Below, piece by piece: positions 4,507-37,745 of a stretch of DNA of 39,786 bases. Location: the IMG/VR virus record IMGVR_UViG_3300042485_000623, positions 1-39,786 of that record; one strand, given 5' to 3'. How positions within the stretch are numbered: the first letter of the stretch is position 1; each line of letters starts with the position of its first letter. The notes under the pieces were generated by a model that worked only from the letters and a program-made list of their open reading frames with translations, ran no database searches and was not told the DNA's origin. The position numbers and the translations under genes are program-made. This DNA is from a virus.

Positions 4507-7013
<2,507 letters not shown>

Positions 7014-7034
7014 TATTCCTCATTGTTACACGTG

Positions 7035-7574
7035 TTATTCAATGATAGCGGATTTCTTGGCTTTCAAGTCAGCCGCACAAGATCTACAAGGTCTTTCTAA
7101 CTTGTGTTGTGGACAAATCTCCCTGCGGTGGGTTTTGGGGGTTTGGGGGCTTTTATCTAGTTCTTTATCTAGGTCTTTTAATAGAGCGCTATTACCGGCG
7201 TTCGGTTTACCGACGTTCGGTAACCGCACTTCGGTGGCCTTTTTATCCACAGATTTGGATGAGTTATCCACAGACTTATCCACAGGCATGTCATACACGT
7301 AGGTAGCCGTAGACCACTTACCGCCCTCATCCTGCTTCTTAGAGCGAACAAGATACCCGTAGGTCTCCAACTCCGTCAGCGCTGTCAAAATGGCTCTACG
7401 TCCTTCTCTGCCCTCTGTAGCCAGATCCCACGCCGAGCATCTCCAGTTATCTGGACGGGACAAGATAGAAGCTAGAACTCCCCTGGCACGAAAAGAGAGG
7501 CGCTCATCTTGAAGCACCTCATTGCGAATAATTGCAAACTTACTGCTTGGGCGTTCCGCCCTGATAATTGTCAC
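7035..7574 (-). CDS. Helix-turn-helix replication initiator-like protein
   Basis: This is a 179-aa protein. The N-terminal 95 residues form a winged HTH domain (LSFRARGVLASILSRPDNW, then RAILTALTELETYGYLVR) of the type found in phage replisome organisers. The middle (about 96-135) has repeats VDKSVDNSSKSVDKK and KDLDKELDK. The C-terminus has a CPQH...RPCRSC zinc-like motif. The repeats are where the DNA carries DnaA boxes and iterons, so the gene contains an origin-like site as lambda O does. The start is GTG at 7574, with AGGAG ten bases upstream. It is the last gene of the replication operon. Confidence 0.8.
   Translation of the reverse strand: MTIIRAERPSSKFAIIRNEVLQDERLSFRARGVLASILSRPDNWRCSAWDLATEGREGRRAILTALTELETYGYLVRSKKQDEGGKWSTATYVYDMPVDKSVDNSSKSVDKKATEVRLPNVGKPNAGNSALLKDLDKELDKSPQTPKTHRREICPQHKLERPCRSCAADLKAKKSAIIE
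7108..7284. other. Origin-of-replication-like cluster inside the initiator gene
   Basis: In order on the plus strand: a DnaA box of the streptomycete/mycobacterial form TTGTCCACA, reversed, at 7108-7116; AT-rich direct repeats TTTATCTAG at 7152-7160 and 7164-7172 with a related T-rich unit after them; three 13-bp iterons, ACCGGCGTTCGGT (7194-7206), ACCGACGTTCGGT (7209-7221) and ACCGCACTTCGGT (7223-7235); and three perfect DnaA boxes TTATCCACA at 7243-7251, 7264-7272 and 7276-7284. The iterons are built on ACCG/CGGT inverted arms. The order resembles bacterial and lambdoid origins. Confidence 0.7.
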
Positions 7575-7650
7575 CTTTAGTCTCCTCTATTTCCAATGCT
7601 GACTCTAATGCTTTGATCCAAATCTGGACACTTCCACGATTGCTTTTCAT
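7540..7650 (-). CDS. Hypothetical 36-aa protein
   Basis: This short protein (begins MKSNRGSVQIWIKALESALE) overlaps the start of the initiator gene by 35 bases. The start at 7650 is chosen because the upstream part of this frame lies over the CxxC gene at 7664-7825. No clear ribosome site is visible. The family is unknown and it may not be expressed. Confidence 0.45.
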   Translation of the reverse strand: MKSNRGSVQIWIKALESALEIEETKGDNYQGGTPKQ

Positions 7651-7663
7651 CGCAGCTATGACT

Positions 7664-7825
7664 TCAATTACTGCGTGATACTGCTGATCTTCCACTGTCT
7701 TCCTGCCATTCTTCTTTATACCGAGACATGCAGTAGTAGCAAAGCACCTGCCATCCGTTGTATGCGAATACAGATTCACTTACCTTGCCACATAGGTCAC
7801 ACTTGATTGCAAAGTTATCTTCCAT
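7664..7825 (-). CDS. Small zinc-ribbon protein (53 aa)
   Basis: The sequence begins MEDNFAIKCDLCGKVSE and has a second knuckle CYYC near residue 29, giving a C-x2-C...C-x2-C zinc ribbon. The ATG at 7825 overlaps the previous stop as TAATG. This is preferred over a longer open frame on the same strand (GTG at 7779) because it has paired cysteine knuckles and exact start-stop coupling. It is one of a run of five tiny zinc proteins before the initiator gene. Confidence 0.7.
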   Translation of the reverse strand: MEDNFAIKCDLCGKVSESVFAYNGWQVLCYYCMSRYKEEWQEDSGRSAVSRSN

Positions 7826-9186: not shown

Positions 9187-9450
9187 TCATCCCTCCCAGG
9201 AGTTGCGCATGAGACCTTCTGCATGCGCTTCTTTCGGATGTAGGGTGACCCAGCTATGGCACGAATGACATAACGGGACACAGTTATCTTTATCTAAAAT
9301 TGACCCACCTCTTGCGCGAGTCAAAACTTCATGTACTTCTGTTGCTTCTGCTGAATTACAACGAATACAAATTGCATCCTGCAGCACTTCGGCAACCAGC
9401 TTTCGACGCGCTATGTAAAGGCGAGCCATCTTCTTGGAACGTGGTCTCAT
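9187..9450 (-). CDS. HNH endonuclease
   Basis: This 87-aa protein has CIRC, then VHEVLTRARGGSILDKDNCV and PLCHSCHSWVTLHPKEA. This is a typical HNH core with two zinc knuckles (CxxC and CxxC) and the catalytic His in the VHE position. The usual D-H-I/V-x-P is replaced by VHEVL. The start at 9450 is chosen because it forms ATGA with the methyltransferase stop; an ATG at 9468 is also possible. The position next to a C5 methyltransferase suggests a self-protected restriction-like nuclease, or simply a packaging or free-standing HNH nuclease. Confidence 0.85.
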   Translation of the reverse strand: MRPRSKKMARLYIARRKLVAEVLQDAICIRCNSAEATEVHEVLTRARGGSILDKDNCVPLCHSCHSWVTLHPKEAHAEGLMRNSWEG

Positions 9451-9947
9451 AAACGAAATCCTATCCATTCAATTACGTTTACAGTGACAGCATTTCCCAT
9501 CTGCTTGTAGCGCTGAGTATCTGATTGTTCATCAGTCCAGCCGTCAGGGAATCCCTGTAGGCGCTCACACTCAGTTGGAGTTAAGCGACGAACGCGCATT
9601 GGTTCAGCGATGAATGTTTGCGCGTGATGTGATTGAACACTTGGTTGTAAAGATTGCAAAGCCCTAGCCTGTTCTATTTCAGTAGCCGAAAAGTTGTTAG
9701 CCTTAGCGTCCTCACGAATTGAGTAAGCCACAGCTTGAGCGCCAGTCTGGTCGAGAGTGTATGAAGGATCGTTCTCAGTTCCTAAGCCAAGACCGTTCTG
9801 TTTCTTTTCCATTTCTCTACCGTCCTGGATTGGATAAGCAAGAATCGGCATGTTGTTCCCACCAGTTCCCATTCTTGCTTGCAAAGTATTAATCACATCT
9901 CCTTGGATGCGTATGTCAGCTACGCGATTACCGTAAAAAATAATCAA
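9447..9947 (-). CDS. C5-cytosine methyltransferase, C-terminal part (frameshifted)
   Basis: This frame carries the C-terminal motifs of a C5 methyltransferase: TLQARMGTGGNNMP (target-recognition region), RVRRLTPTECERLQGFPDGW (motif IX) and QMGNAVTVNVIEWIG (motif X). It lies +1 relative to the N-terminal part and has only a TTG for a start at 9947, inside the upstream gene. Removing one T from the six-T run (9935-9940) would join the two into one protein of about 440 aa. The break is therefore a homopolymer indel, either a sequencing error, a real inactivating mutation, or a phase-variable switch. Confidence 0.8.
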   Translation of the reverse strand: MIIFYGNRVADIRIQGDVINTLQARMGTGGNNMPILAYPIQDGREMEKKQNGLGLGTENDPSYTLDQTGAQAVAYSIREDAKANNFSATEIEQARALQSLQPSVQSHHAQTFIAEPMRVRRLTPTECERLQGFPDGWTDEQSDTQRYKQMGNAVTVNVIEWIGFRL

Positions 9948-10782
9948 ATCTACCGACCTGCAGCACTACCGGAAATCTATTTTTTTCAGGCATCATCTGC
10001 TGTTTAGCAATCACTGTGTCCAGAGTTTGACTGATCTGACCGCCATCCCACCACATTCCATCATTAACAACAATCTTGTTTTCGTGTACCTGTTGCTGTT
10101 GTGGAAACTTATGGTCGCTAGCGCACAAAGCTCCAACTATTCCGGATCCGACGATGCTACCTGTTCTAGTGCTTCGTTTAGCATTTCCGGTAGTTTCTTG
10201 TCCCGCTTGGTCGCCCGTCTTAGGATTCCCCGCGCTGCTTTCCCACTCAGAGAGTATCGTTCGGAAGGGTTCTGTTCCAACACTTGCGACAATGAAGACT
10301 CGACGACGGCGCTGGGCGACTCCGAAGAATTGCGAATTAAGAATACGCCATTCGATGTTGCTATACCCTGCGTCGGCCAACTCAGTGAGGAGGACTCCGA
10401 AGTCGCGTCCTTGGTTGCTTGATAGAAGTCCTGGCACATTTTCCAAGAGAATTGTTTTGGCTTTAACAGCTTTCGCGAAAGCGAGTGCGTCGTAGAATAA
10501 TCCAGATCGCTTGCCATCCAATCCAGCGCGCTTACCTGCGACACTAAGGTCTTGGCAAGGGAATCCTCCTGCGACGAGATCAACGTTTCCTGTAAGTCCA
10601 ATTTCATCAGCCCAATCTATTGCTGTAGTTACATCATTATGCTTTGGCACATCTGGCCAATGACGAGCAAGCACACTCTGAGCATGCTTATCAATTTCAA
10701 CTTGACCGACGCAAGTGTGACCTGAGCGTTCTAAGCCCAGATCAAACCCACCTACACCGGCAAATAAACTAACGAACCGCAC
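9928..10782 (-). CDS. C5-cytosine DNA methyltransferase, N-terminal part
   Basis: This is 284 aa. It shows motif I (FVSLFAGVGGFDLGLE), the catalytic loop GGFPCQDLS with Cys76 (motif IV), LLENVPGL (motif VI) and QRRRRVFIVA (motif VIII). It transfers a methyl group from S-adenosylmethionine to C5 of cytosine. It ends early after VLQVGRFDYFLR because of the frameshift, so it lacks motifs IX and X. The start is GTG at 10782, overlapping a zinc peptide gene by 14 bases. In a phage it likely protects DNA from host restriction. Confidence 0.85.
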   Translation of the reverse strand: MRFVSLFAGVGGFDLGLERSGHTCVGQVEIDKHAQSVLARHWPDVPKHNDVTTAIDWADEIGLTGNVDLVAGGFPCQDLSVAGKRAGLDGKRSGLFYDALAFAKAVKAKTILLENVPGLLSSNQGRDFGVLLTELADAGYSNIEWRILNSQFFGVAQRRRRVFIVASVGTEPFRTILSEWESSAGNPKTGDQAGQETTGNAKRSTRTGSIVGSGIVGALCASDHKFPQQQQVHENKIVVNDGMWWDGGQISQTLDTVIAKQQMMPEKNRFPVVLQVGRFDYFLR

Positions 10783-13103: not shown

Positions 13104-13283
13104 TTACTCGTCGTTGTCGCGTAGAGGAATCGTTAGTAGCCACACAACTAATCCGCCCACAATAATGTATCCAGTTATTAGCTGGGCTGATCCGGTTAAT
13201 GTTGCATACGCTATGAGTAAACCAACAAAAGTATAGGTTTCTCCTGTGATTTCACGTAGGTATTTTTTTATCCACTTAATCAT
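13104..13283 (-). CDS. Small two-helix membrane protein, second holin candidate
   Basis: This 59-aa protein has a basic N-terminus (MIKWIKKYLRE), hydrophobic segments at about 17-30 and 34-53, and a charged C-terminus (RDNDE). It is the last gene of the lysis operon, with a strong ribosome site (AGGAGG) and an ATGA overlap with the gene before. Size and topology fit a holin, antiholin or accessory membrane protein. Confidence 0.75.
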   Translation of the reverse strand: MIKWIKKYLREITGETYTFVGLLIAYATLTGSAQLITGYIIVGGLVVWLLTIPLRDNDE

Positions 13284-14632
13284 TTGATCCTCCTAACTTG
13301 CGCTAGTTGAGTCACAATTACTGCTGCGACTACGGTATTTTGGGAAGTTTCGCGTTCTTCTTCGGTCATGTCAGCGCCTACGTGCCTAAGAGCTTTAAGC
13401 GCTTTGCCTGGGTCGCTAAAGATTGTTGATATTAACTCTGCCGGTGTATCAAAGATTTCAATAGCGTCAGCAACTTCAGCGGTAAGAATGACTCCATTTT
13501 CTAAAGTGATCGGAGTATTTGGTGGCAGGTCTGCGTAGTCAAGGCCAGATGCTTGGAAGTCTTCAAAGCTGACTGCTTCGCCAGGCGCTAGATTTGCTAT
13601 AAGTTCTTCTGCAGTAGTTGGAACTTGTACAACTTCTTGTACAGGTTCTAATGTAGGTTCAGGCGTAACGCTAGGCGTTACTAATGGTTCAGGAGATGGT
13701 GATTCACTTTGAGTAGGTTCAGGTACTGGCGTTGGCTCTGGGTTCAGAGTTGGTTCAACGCTTTCGACTGGATTAGGGCTAAAACTTGGCACAGGTTCTA
13801 AGGTTGGCTCAGGAGGCGCTGTAAGCGATTCTGAGGGACTTGGGGTAGGAGTTGGCTCTGGAGTTGGCGTTGGTTCTAAAGTCGGCTCAGGAGTCGGTGT
13901 AGGGCTTGGAATTTCTGTGGGACTAGGCAAAATCGTTGGTTCTGGGGTTGGTTCTGGTGTTGGTGTTTCAGTTGGTGTAGGAGTTGGTTCTGGGGTAGGT
14001 GTTGGCTCTGGTGTAGGAGTTTCAGATGGGACTACTGGTGGCTCTGTGAAAGATGGGGGAGTTGGTGATGGTGATACTTCTATAGGTATACCGCCATCGC
14101 CTACATCAAAGGCAGCTTCAATGTTTACCACTGGCTCACCTTGAGTAAACCGAATACCACGACGCAAGTTATCTGGAGTCCATCCAAAGGTAACTATTTC
14201 TCCATGCCAAGTTCCGTTCGGGTACTTGTTAATAACTAATCGGATCTGAGTTAATTCACCAGTTGACTGTGGAAATGGGCGAACACTCCACTCGGCGCAG
14301 AATGTGTTTTCAGTAGACCCAAACGAAAGATAAGCGCCCTGTCCAAAAGTAACCCAGTCATAACCAGCAACAGATACCGATGGAGTCTGTGGGTAATCCC
14401 AATAAGTTCCGTCTGGTCTTCCAAAAGTAAGAGTTCCGTTAGTTGAAATGTAAACATTTTCGTACTCGGTTTCACCCAGCTTTAGAGTGAACGGAAGATT
14501 AGCGGCGTAGGAACTATCGTCGTCACCGGTATACGTGTAAGCATTGCAAATAACTTGCGCTGAGGCTGGGGAAGTCATAGCAAAGATTCCAACCATCAAG
14601 GCAACCATGCCGAGCCGGAACATTTTTCTCAC
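13280..14632 (-). CDS. Secreted protein with long Pro-Thr-rich stalk
   Basis: This is a 450-aa protein. The N-terminus is a Sec signal peptide (MRKMFRLGMVALMVG...ASA-Q). Residues about 27-190 form a globular beta domain with two cysteines. Residues about 195-340 are PTPEPT-type repeats, as in actinobacterial wall-spanning linkers. The C-terminal region has an acidic helix and ends QVRRIK. The start is GTG at 14632, forming TAGTG with the upstream stop and giving a good signal peptide. Export from the infected cell and attachment to or crossing of the wall are inferred. It could aid lysis or block other phages. Confidence 0.8.
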   Translation of the reverse strand: MRKMFRLGMVALMVGIFAMTSPASAQVICNAYTYTGDDDSSYAANLPFTLKLGETEYENVYISTNGTLTFGRPDGTYWDYPQTPSVSVAGYDWVTFGQGAYLSFGSTENTFCAEWSVRPFPQSTGELTQIRLVINKYPNGTWHGEIVTFGWTPDNLRRGIRFTQGEPVVNIEAAFDVGDGGIPIEVSPSPTPPSFTEPPVVPSETPTPEPTPTPEPTPTPTETPTPEPTPEPTILPSPTEIPSPTPTPEPTLEPTPTPEPTPTPSPSESLTAPPEPTLEPVPSFSPNPVESVEPTLNPEPTPVPEPTQSESPSPEPLVTPSVTPEPTLEPVQEVVQVPTTAEELIANLAPGEAVSFEDFQASGLDYADLPPNTPITLENGVILTAEVADAIEIFDTPAELISTIFSDPGKALKALRHVGADMTEEERETSQNTVVAAVIVTQLAQVRRIK

Positions 14633-15078
14633 TAAGGTTGCCACCACTTAAGTTGTCGTTGATTTGAGTAACATTTACCGCCAATTACTTTGTATTGAGC
14701 GATTATTGGGTATTTAGTTTTAGACTCCCACCAGAGAGAGCCTTGCCAATCTTTAGTTGTGTTCTTAGTGAACGTCCAAGTATTAGTTCCAGTAGTATCG
14801 TCTTTTCCTGACTTAACGCGCGCTAAACGAATCTTTACGTACTTCGGTCTTTTAGTGCAGTTAAGGTGCAACTGGGCAAAGAATAAAGTTCTCTTACCAT
14901 TTAACTTAAACGGCTTAACAGAACCAAAATTTTGCCACTTACCTGTAACCTTCTGGTGTTTCAAAGACTTTTGGATACCAGATTTTTTTGATTTTTGAAC
15001 CAAGTACGGATCACTAGCAACTGCCTGTGTGCTAAACGCCAATAACAAAGACATAGCACAGGTAATAACCCGTATCAA
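14632..15078 (-). CDS. Exported hypothetical protein in lysis cassette
   Basis: This 148-aa protein has an N-terminal signal peptide (MIRVITCAMSLLLAFSTQAVA, cleaved near ASD) followed by a basic, beta-rich mature domain with two cysteines (NCTKRP, GGKCYS). The start appears to be TTG at 15078 with AAAGG nine bases upstream. An ATG eight codons later would also keep the signal. It is unknown; its place in the lysis operon suggests action at the cell wall. Confidence 0.7.
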   Translation of the reverse strand: MIRVITCAMSLLLAFSTQAVASDPYLVQKSKKSGIQKSLKHQKVTGKWQNFGSVKPFKLNGKRTLFFAQLHLNCTKRPKYVKIRLARVKSGKDDTTGTNTWTFTKNTTKDWQGSLWWESKTKYPIIAQYKVIGGKCYSNQRQLKWWQP

Positions 15079-24021: not shown

Positions 24022-24057
24022 TAACTTCTCTTTTCTAAAACTTGTGGATAAGAGTGT

Positions 24058-35910: not shown

Positions 35911-37745
35911 CGGGATCCACCCATCCAAGAAGGACGTTTGAATGACACATTATTTTGACCCACATGGAAAAGTCTAGGGGCGTTCCATTGCAAGAACCAA
36001 TGAGACATTACGCAGTCGTCGGTTTTTCCCTCTGGCCAAGTGCTTAATTCAGTGATCATTGGCTCTATTTTCTTGCGCGAGCCATCCATTACAGCACCAG
36101 GTAAACGCACACGACCATAGCGATAATGCGGAGCAAGCGTCTGGACACCGTAATCTTCATCTGACTTATTCCTGTGAGTTGAGTGGGGAACGATGTTAAT
36201 GCCATTGATAGATTGCCAGCGCTTTACATGATCGTACTGCAAAAGGAAGCGCTGTGCAGCGTTTTGTTCAACGATTATGTAGGTAACTGGTTTACCCATG
36301 TCCCTAGCTCGGTCTACCCATTCATCCAAAAGCCCAGAGAACTTACCGTCAGCCTGATTCCAGTCTAAAAAGTCAGGAGCATCCATTGGACCGCGGTATA
36401 AATCAAGCAAATACTGGATTTCTGTCTCTGGGTTGTAAAGCCACCACTGGACAGCCCAGTTTTTAGTAGGGGATGGGTCAGCGGTGATAACGCTAAACCA
36501 GTCTCCACCTAGATTCTTAGGGATTTGTCCGATACCTCGGTTTTCATCCCAGCACCCTGGATGGGTTATCCCGTCAGAGTCAGTGCCGCCTTCAATCCAG
36601 ATTCTAGGAACTAGCTGGTTGTCAGCATCGTGGTCTTCTTGCTGGTACATAACCAGATAACGTTCTTCGCGGTTAGCCTTTACCCGCTGGAGTTCGCGCC
36701 AAGATAGTCGGATTGGATCCAATAAACAGCCATCAGGCCACGGCTTAGGGTTATCGTGCTTACCGGTACACAATTCGTCGTAGTGGGACTTGTAAACGAT
36801 GTGCTTGTACTTCTTAGGAGCATCATCAACAATCTCCCCTTCGTCGTCTACGTCAGTTAAATCAAGGACATAACGGTAAAGATCATCGGAGGCTAGTCGC
36901 TGTCCCTGTAGAATCAATAGTCCACCTGGTTCTAATCGAGACTCAGCTTCGTTCTCCCACCAAGTAGTTAAAGCGTCAAAATCGCCACGCATGGTCTTTT
37001 TATCCACAAGGTCGTCCCAGATGATGAAGTCGAAACGTCCACCAAGGAAACCAGAGTCCATACCGTAGGCAGTTACAGTGGATTCTTTATCATCAACAGC
37101 AACACCAGAGGATTGCTGGACTACAAATTCGGCCTTTGTCCACAGGTCGTTGTTGGCAGGTTTGAATAACCCGTAGTCCTTGGCCATAGTTGCAGTGGCA
37201 TCGGTAGCCAGACCCAGTTCAACTAGTTTGGGATCAGCTCGTACGGCTAGTTCACGTTCCAGAGTCCTACGAAGGCGGTTAGAGTACATTCTTGCTTGTT
37301 GCTCGGTACGGGAAGCTACCATTATTCGGATAGACCGGTCTCTGGCTATAAGCCATGCTGGGAGGTCGTGGGTGAACATGGTGGATTTACCCACACCAGG
37401 AGCGATGTTGATAACTAGGAACTCTTTTTGGGGAGATGCCAGTAGTTCAGTGATCTTGTTAGCAGCTTCTACCGACCATGGGGTGCTGGCTCTAGCCATG
37501 TACCGTTGACGGAAATAACCAAAATCCTCTAAAGCCCGTAAACCCTCCGGTGATGATCCAAGATCAATACTTAAACCCCTAGAAGCCATCAATCTGCTAA
37601 GGCGAGAGTCACGATTAGCCATCTGCCGTGTTACCGTAGAAACAGCAACTCCCACATCCTTAGCTGCTCGCTCTACTGAGTAGCCCTTCTCCCTAAGATC
37701 AAGGAACTTACCCCATACATCATCGTCTACTTGTCTGCCTGCCAT
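35898..37745 (-). CDS. terL: Terminase large subunit with N-terminal HTH domain
   Basis: This is a 615-aa protein. Residues 10-50 form an HTH (FLDLREKGYSVERAAKDVGV, then AVSTVTRQM), unusual for TerL. The ATPase follows: Walker A APGVGKST (115-122), Walker B FIIWDD (240-245), then SRTEQQ and the coupling region. The nuclease domain has TADPSPTKNW (D423), YIIVEQNAAQ (E493) and KTDDCVMSHW near residue 590. It pumps DNA into the capsid and cuts the concatemer. TAGGCT lies exactly six bases before ATG, suggesting a leaderless mRNA. Confidence 0.93.
   Translation of the reverse strand: MAGRQVDDDVWGKFLDLREKGYSVERAAKDVGVAVSTVTRQMANRDSRLSRLMASRGLSIDLGSSPEGLRALEDFGYFRQRYMARASTPWSVEAANKITELLASPQKEFLVINIAPGVGKSTMFTHDLPAWLIARDRSIRIMVASRTEQQARMYSNRLRRTLERELAVRADPKLVELGLATDATATMAKDYGLFKPANNDLWTKAEFVVQQSSGVAVDDKESTVTAYGMDSGFLGGRFDFIIWDDLVDKKTMRGDFDALTTWWENEAESRLEPGGLLILQGQRLASDDLYRYVLDLTDVDDEGEIVDDAPKKYKHIVYKSHYDELCTGKHDNPKPWPDGCLLDPIRLSWRELQRVKANREERYLVMYQQEDHDADNQLVPRIWIEGGTDSDGITHPGCWDENRGIGQIPKNLGGDWFSVITADPSPTKNWAVQWWLYNPETEIQYLLDLYRGPMDAPDFLDWNQADGKFSGLLDEWVDRARDMGKPVTYIIVEQNAAQRFLLQYDHVKRWQSINGINIVPHSTHRNKSDEDYGVQTLAPHYRYGRVRLPGAVMDGSRKKIEPMITELSTWPEGKTDDCVMSHWFLQWNAPRLFHVGQNNVSFKRPSWMGGSRWVR

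Follow-up and report, generated by a model that had tools for sequence, protein, structure and literature searches.

Can a short stretch of an initiator gene encode protein and at the same time serve as the origin of replication? The question is raised by a metagenomic virus contig, IMG/VR record IMGVR_UViG_3300042485_000623, whose full 39,786 nucleotides we refer to as the window. Positions 7108-7284, within a putative replication initiator gene on the minus strand, hold DnaA boxes, iterons and AT-rich repeats. We put at roughly 85% the probability that this module is the replication origin of the phage, set inside the linker-encoding part of its own initiator gene and provided with a docking site for DnaA. 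That an origin can be embedded in a gene is already known: lambda O and SPP1 gene 38 are examples, and 80alpha ORF20 is a probable one.

The initiator gene and the DNA elements within it

The 179-aa product matched PHROG profiles 37920 (E=5e-23) and 4707 (E=1e-21), as well as 270 and 428 ("replication initiation protein"), and it gave a weak match to Pfam HTH_36 (E=7e-4), under the curated cut-off. By profile, the protein is a member of the HTH_36/PHROG 37920-4707-270 family of phage replication initiators, and its relatives are annotated as "RepA-like replication initiator" in Arthrobacter and Gordonia phages and as "replication initiation protein" in staphylococcal phages. Residues 1-97 make up a winged-helix domain, followed by a linker (residues ~98-160) and a short C-terminal tail bearing Cys and His. 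The linker is predicted to be disordered: AlphaFold pLDDT was 85-94 over most of residues 1-100 and below 50 for residues 101-125 and 127-152. The top single fold match was a putative transcription regulator, RctB domain 1 was a weak fold neighbor, and a PDB sequence search using the family profile returned no match.

The features of the locus are as follows; L007 and L008 are two relatives of the window phage.

7035-7574, minus strand: replication initiator gene, GTG start, 179 aa; winged helix, linker and tail
7276-7284, plus strand: DnaA box TTATCCACA, first in gene order, exact match; retained in L007 and L008
7264-7272, plus strand: DnaA box TTATCCACA, second, exact match; 12 bp from the first box, a spacing that recurs in many relatives
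7243-7251, plus strand: DnaA box TTATCCACA, third, exact match; differs by one base in L007
7223-7235, unstranded: iteron ACCGCACTTCGGT, dyad-symmetric, predicted initiator-binding site; identical in L007 and L008
7209-7221, unstranded: iteron ACCGACGTTCGGT, ACCG-n5-CGGT pattern
7194-7206, unstranded: iteron ACCGGCGTTCGGT, ACCG-n5-CGGT pattern
7150-7184, unstranded: AT-rich repeats TTTATCTAG at 7152 and 7164; predicted DNA-unwinding element, from duplex instability
7108-7116, minus strand: outlying DnaA-type box TTGTCCACA; conserved in L007 and L008

Read along the coding (minus) strand, the winged-helix codons are followed by the DnaA boxes (7284-7243), the three iterons (7235-7194), the AT-rich repeats (7184-7150) and the lone TTGTCCACA (7116-7108). 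All the elements that a preliminary description of this DNA had listed within 7108-7284 were found where it had placed them. Boxes, iterons and AT-rich repeats overlie the codons of the disordered linker, whose protein repeats read VDKSVDN and KDLDKELDK in the window phage and xPNxG in relatives. The iterons are spaced 15 and 14 bases apart, and the ACCG-n5-CGGT pattern occurs nowhere else in the window (three in total). Duplex stability is low next to them, with the 35-bp segment from 7150 falling at the 99.93rd percentile of instability within the whole window, which is consistent with an AT-rich unwinding element that adjoins the iterons and is predicted to melt.

To assess how readily such boxes arise, we compared observed with expected counts. 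The preliminary description had expected a single DnaA 9-mer less than once in 40 kb, and we obtained an expectation of 0.26 copies of TTATCCACA per window over both strands, but the boxes are not unique to the module: the window has six, of which three are scattered at 24043, 31089 and 37000. The probability of finding three TTATCCACA within 42 bp was ~6e-9 under a Markov model and ~7e-5 at the observed density of six. One scattered copy belongs to a pair of DnaA-type 9-mers, TTATCCACA and TTGTCCACA, at 37000 and 37136 (37000-37144) in the terminase ORF, where there are no iterons.

Conservation of the module among relatives

Relatives came from two protein-profile scans of viral contigs, a scan with a single protein and a genome scan; once duplicates were removed, ~170 distinct sequences remained. 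Among near relatives grouped into nine clusters, 63 of 389 codon columns within the module showed any synonymous change, compared with 801 of 1482 elsewhere. The 30-codon window with the least synonymous change began at codon 90-112 in eight of the nine clusters, the ninth consisting of two distinct members only. In addition, 21 of 66 dereplicated loci have their stop codon within the module; in 7 of these, iterons lie beyond the stop, and in 5, boxes do. In the truncated initiators, boxes, CCGAn3TCGG-like iterons and AT-rich repeats run on past the stop in unchanged order, as noncoding DNA. Since the stop codons move and the elements lie beyond them, the DNA is kept where protein is lost. As DNA, the module is conserved to a degree that its coding content does not account for, and it outlasts truncation of the protein. 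Within box-bearing classes, DnaA boxes reach 6.4-7.9 per kb in the module vs. 0.02-0.03 per kb outside it, at nearly fixed positions; the L058 and L246 groups also carry TTGTCCACA near the gene end, in opposite orientation.

The preliminary description had noticed that the DNA repeats coincide with low-complexity protein, had taken the DNA requirement to come first, and had expected iterons and boxes to persist in related phages. The relatives bear this out: synonymous sites are conserved, with synonymous change collapsing over the module, and iterons and boxes survive the coding sequence as noncoding DNA.

Two other explanations for the repeats and their conservation bear on these data. Repeated amino acids or chance could by themselves have given rise to the DNA repeats, and low-complexity repeats are truly encoded in the linker (VDKSVDN and KDLDKELDK here, xPNxG in relatives). 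When codons were resampled synonymously with the protein held fixed, however, 100,000 trials reached four boxes once, three iterons never and two AT-rich repeats 324 times, so that boxes plus iterons are not regenerated. Relatives, moreover, keep the elements beyond their stop codons. On these two grounds chance and low-complexity protein are ruled out as the source of the repeats, and we give that explanation practically no weight. An overlapping gene or RNA, instead of protein-binding DNA, could in turn account for the low synonymous change; one antisense frame is open in the window phage and two close relatives, and the plus strand of the window has ORFs at 7042-7302 and 7109-7306. Across the clusters, however, alternative frames are not consistently open, the antisense frame being closed in most members of most clusters, so an overlapping gene does not explain the synonymous collapse. 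Rfam gave no match, and neither a gene nor an RNA would explain the sequence repeats and DnaA boxes. This alternative is therefore largely refuted and, in our judgment, very improbable.

Core layout, accessory DnaA boxes and genome context

We then compared the makeup of the module across the family. Iterons followed by AT-rich direct repeats occur in the same linker in box-free relatives as well, Arthrobacter phage SilentRX and Gordonia phage Aleemily among them, and these two elements are the family-wide core, which extends to Firmicutes phages and a plasmid. DnaA boxes are accessory and present in at least two lineages: on an initiator tree of fewer than 100 columns, with the window phage on a long branch, they fall in one well-supported clade and in separate entries that include the window phage, corresponding to four changes; the boxes of the window phage may be ancestral, exchanged or convergent. 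They are missing from most other branches (0 of 27 initiators of the "YPRK" type, 0 of 34 genome loci), and for this reason DnaA is not generally needed by such origins. The origin composition first proposed for this locus is thus retained for the iterons and AT-rich repeats, whereas the DnaA boxes are confined to some lineages.

Several observations accompany this comparison. In Staphylococcus and Lactobacillus phages, Gordonia phage Aleemily and a Brevibacillus plasmid (L431-L434), iterons of ~15 nt and then AT-rich repeats follow the winged helix, in linkers with low-complexity Asn/Thr-rich or xGKPx-type protein repeats. Longer relatives (L054, L052 and L020) share a FWxxYPRK C-terminal domain that has no Pfam match; it also occurs in the initiator of Gordonia phage Aleemily, whose gene precedes that of a helicase loader, and is a candidate helicase-loader contact domain. 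Many IMG/VR contigs of ~10-16 kb (L219-L256 and similar) encode initiators of 100-120 aa near a contig end, with DnaA boxes; such contigs may comprise almost the whole genome of a very small actinophage. A scan of phages for triple DnaA boxes gave, among the matches listed, 80 loci without an initiator-family member at E<=1e-3.

Two possible correlates of box presence were considered. Raw counts set boxes against the "YPRK" C-terminal domain, with 0 of 27 loci bearing boxes when the domain is present vs. 66 of 82 when it is absent; the association is unsupported, as it comprises only three phylogenetically independent pairs, and we keep it as a hypothesis. A tie between boxes and a missing phage helicase was rejected, because box-free relatives likewise lack a DnaB_C match.

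The surroundings of the gene were also examined. RusA, SSB, exonuclease and Rad52-like genes lie near the initiator in the window, a replication-module context. In Staphylococcus phage CNPH82 and Gordonia phage Aleemily, the genes directly following the homolog encode a helicase loader and a DnaB-like helicase, and in SilentRX, Tank and Odyssey395 the homolog is directly followed by a primase or primase/helicase gene. A profile search of the window returned no DnaB_C, IstB/DnaC-like, AAA_25 or DNA_pol_A match. The preliminary statement that the genome has no replicative helicase or polymerase thus agrees with the profiles, by which helicase, loader and PolA are absent from a possibly fragmentary record; as a metagenomic contig without end repeats, it may lack genes of the complete genome. 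A WhiB gene and the actinobacterial relatives point to a host among the Actinobacteria. GC skew, over the whole window and at third codon positions, drifted one way without a switch; with almost every gene on the same strand, it is uninformative about the position of the origin. The only stretch with strongly positive skew (+0.2) contains 13280-14647 on the minus strand, a 455-aa ORF without Pfam or PHROG match. Elsewhere on that strand, a C5 cytosine methyltransferase extends over two overlapping ORFs at 9447-10782 (PF00145 positions 1-164 and 221-319), which may be due to a frameshift or a sequencing error or may mean that the enzyme is genuinely split, and a 720-aa ORF near the contig end (4507-6669) reads at ~5800-6530 as collagen-like Gly-X-Y coding repeats.

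A proposed mechanism, known systems and implications

In our reading, the locus is an intragenic origin resembling that of lambda O, to which a DnaA docking site has been added; origin activity and DnaA binding are predicted from the arrangement of the elements. The winged-helix domain of the initiator would bind the dyad iterons, and host DnaA would bind the adjacent TTATCCACA boxes. Together, the two proteins would melt the neighboring AT-rich repeats, and host helicase might then be loaded at the opened repeats, so that the host replisome is taken over. Recruitment of the host helicase is proposed because no phage helicase or loader was found. Against this reading, DnaA boxes are missing from most other branches of the family, one box is mutated in L007, and the box-free relatives are also without a DnaB-type helicase match, so an absent helicase alone does not predict boxes. 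A more specific proposal, which we hold only tentatively and consider somewhat doubtful, is that the window phage and its smallest actinophage relatives (~10-16 kb, with nearly bare winged-helix initiators of 100-120 aa) depend on iteron-adjacent DnaA to obtain host helicase, the boxes taking the place of the loader, or of the C-terminal domain that recruits helicase, in larger relatives. DnaA as a stand-in for a lost helicase-recruiting domain fits the raw counts and is without phylogenetically independent support.

The module might also be an origin in which the DnaA boxes are regulatory, acting on initiator transcription or on the timing of initiation, including by DnaA titration, and not on helicase loading. 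Box-free relatives retain iterons and AT-rich repeats and presumably replicate, and in lambda host DnaA stimulates transcription from pR (PMC7466680). The boxes nevertheless keep a fixed spacing between the winged-helix codons and the iterons, downstream of the start codon, and a scan of 6900-7800 found no sigma-70-like promoter; we regard a purely regulatory role as unlikely, while giving it real weight. A further step away, the stretch would be no origin at all and its repeats would be operators through which the winged-helix protein autoregulates its own gene. Repressors are common among winged-helix proteins that have dyad sites, and the best fold match here is a putative transcription regulator. 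Such operators, however, would lie deep in the coding region with no promoter-like site and beside an unstable AT-rich repeat, and the family is annotated as replication initiator, with homologs adjoining helicase loader and helicase genes. We therefore consider autoregulation improbable, and retain an intragenic origin with DnaA docking as the preferred reading.

In iteron plasmid origins of the P1, F and pSC101 type, and in Vibrio oriCII/RctB, DnaA boxes, iterons and an AT-rich region lie side by side; the likeness to the present locus is one of layout, and these origins are located outside the initiator coding region. In lambda O, iterons and an adjacent AT-rich tract are found mid-gene, and the protein has an N-terminal DNA-binding domain, a linker and a C-terminal part (PMC7466680). 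The preliminary description had assigned lambda O the same arrangement. This holds for orilambda, and for Stx phages, in that iterons and an AT-rich tract lie midway along the initiator gene; the iterons differ in sequence, number and spacing, and the available text describes no DnaA boxes at orilambda. Lambda also has a helicase loader, P, whereas none was found in the window. SPP1 likewise has an origin, oriL, inside its own initiator gene, with direct repeats and an AT-rich unwinding element in gene 38, which encodes the origin-binding protein (PMC6316719); it differs in having its own loader gp39, helicase gp40 and a second origin, oriR, and DnaA is unmentioned in that paper. For 80alpha, an origin embedded in ORF20 was deduced from a mutant that could not be complemented in trans (PMC5499656). 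Initiators of the 80alpha ORF20 and CNPH82 cn45 type are represented among the tblastn homologs in Staphylococcus phages, and CNPH82 shares iterons and AT-rich repeats in the same linker but has an adjacent helicase loader gene and no DnaA boxes at the locus. The RepA-like, HTH-bearing initiators of actinobacteriophages (Wetzel et al. 2020; SEA-PHAGES annotations) are similar by description only. For mycobacterial prophages, Wetzel et al. suggested an origin upstream of or within repA and, unlike here, found no repeated motifs, with DnaA unmentioned in the text (PMC7157519). In the open-licence literature we found no phage origin described that is embedded in a gene and combined with clustered DnaA boxes, and no use of moving stops and synonymous collapse as evidence across an initiator family.

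Together, these results predict an origin at near base-pair resolution for a large, mostly uncharacterized and mainly actinobacterial family of phage initiators, and they provide a clean case in which codons obey a function of the DNA that even survives loss of the coding sequence. Should DnaA indeed act at the module, replication of these phages would be tied to the initiation protein of their host, and a DNA-binding protein of 105 residues plus ~150 bp could rank among the smallest known phage replication starts. Were the window phage and the smallest actinophages truly dependent on it, a phage origin would be licensed by the host's chromosomal initiator. The layout also yields a search rule, by which 14-15-bp iterons and then AT-rich repeats are sought in the linker after the winged helix, applicable to many phages and plasmids whose initiators are annotated merely as "RepA-like" or "HTH protein."
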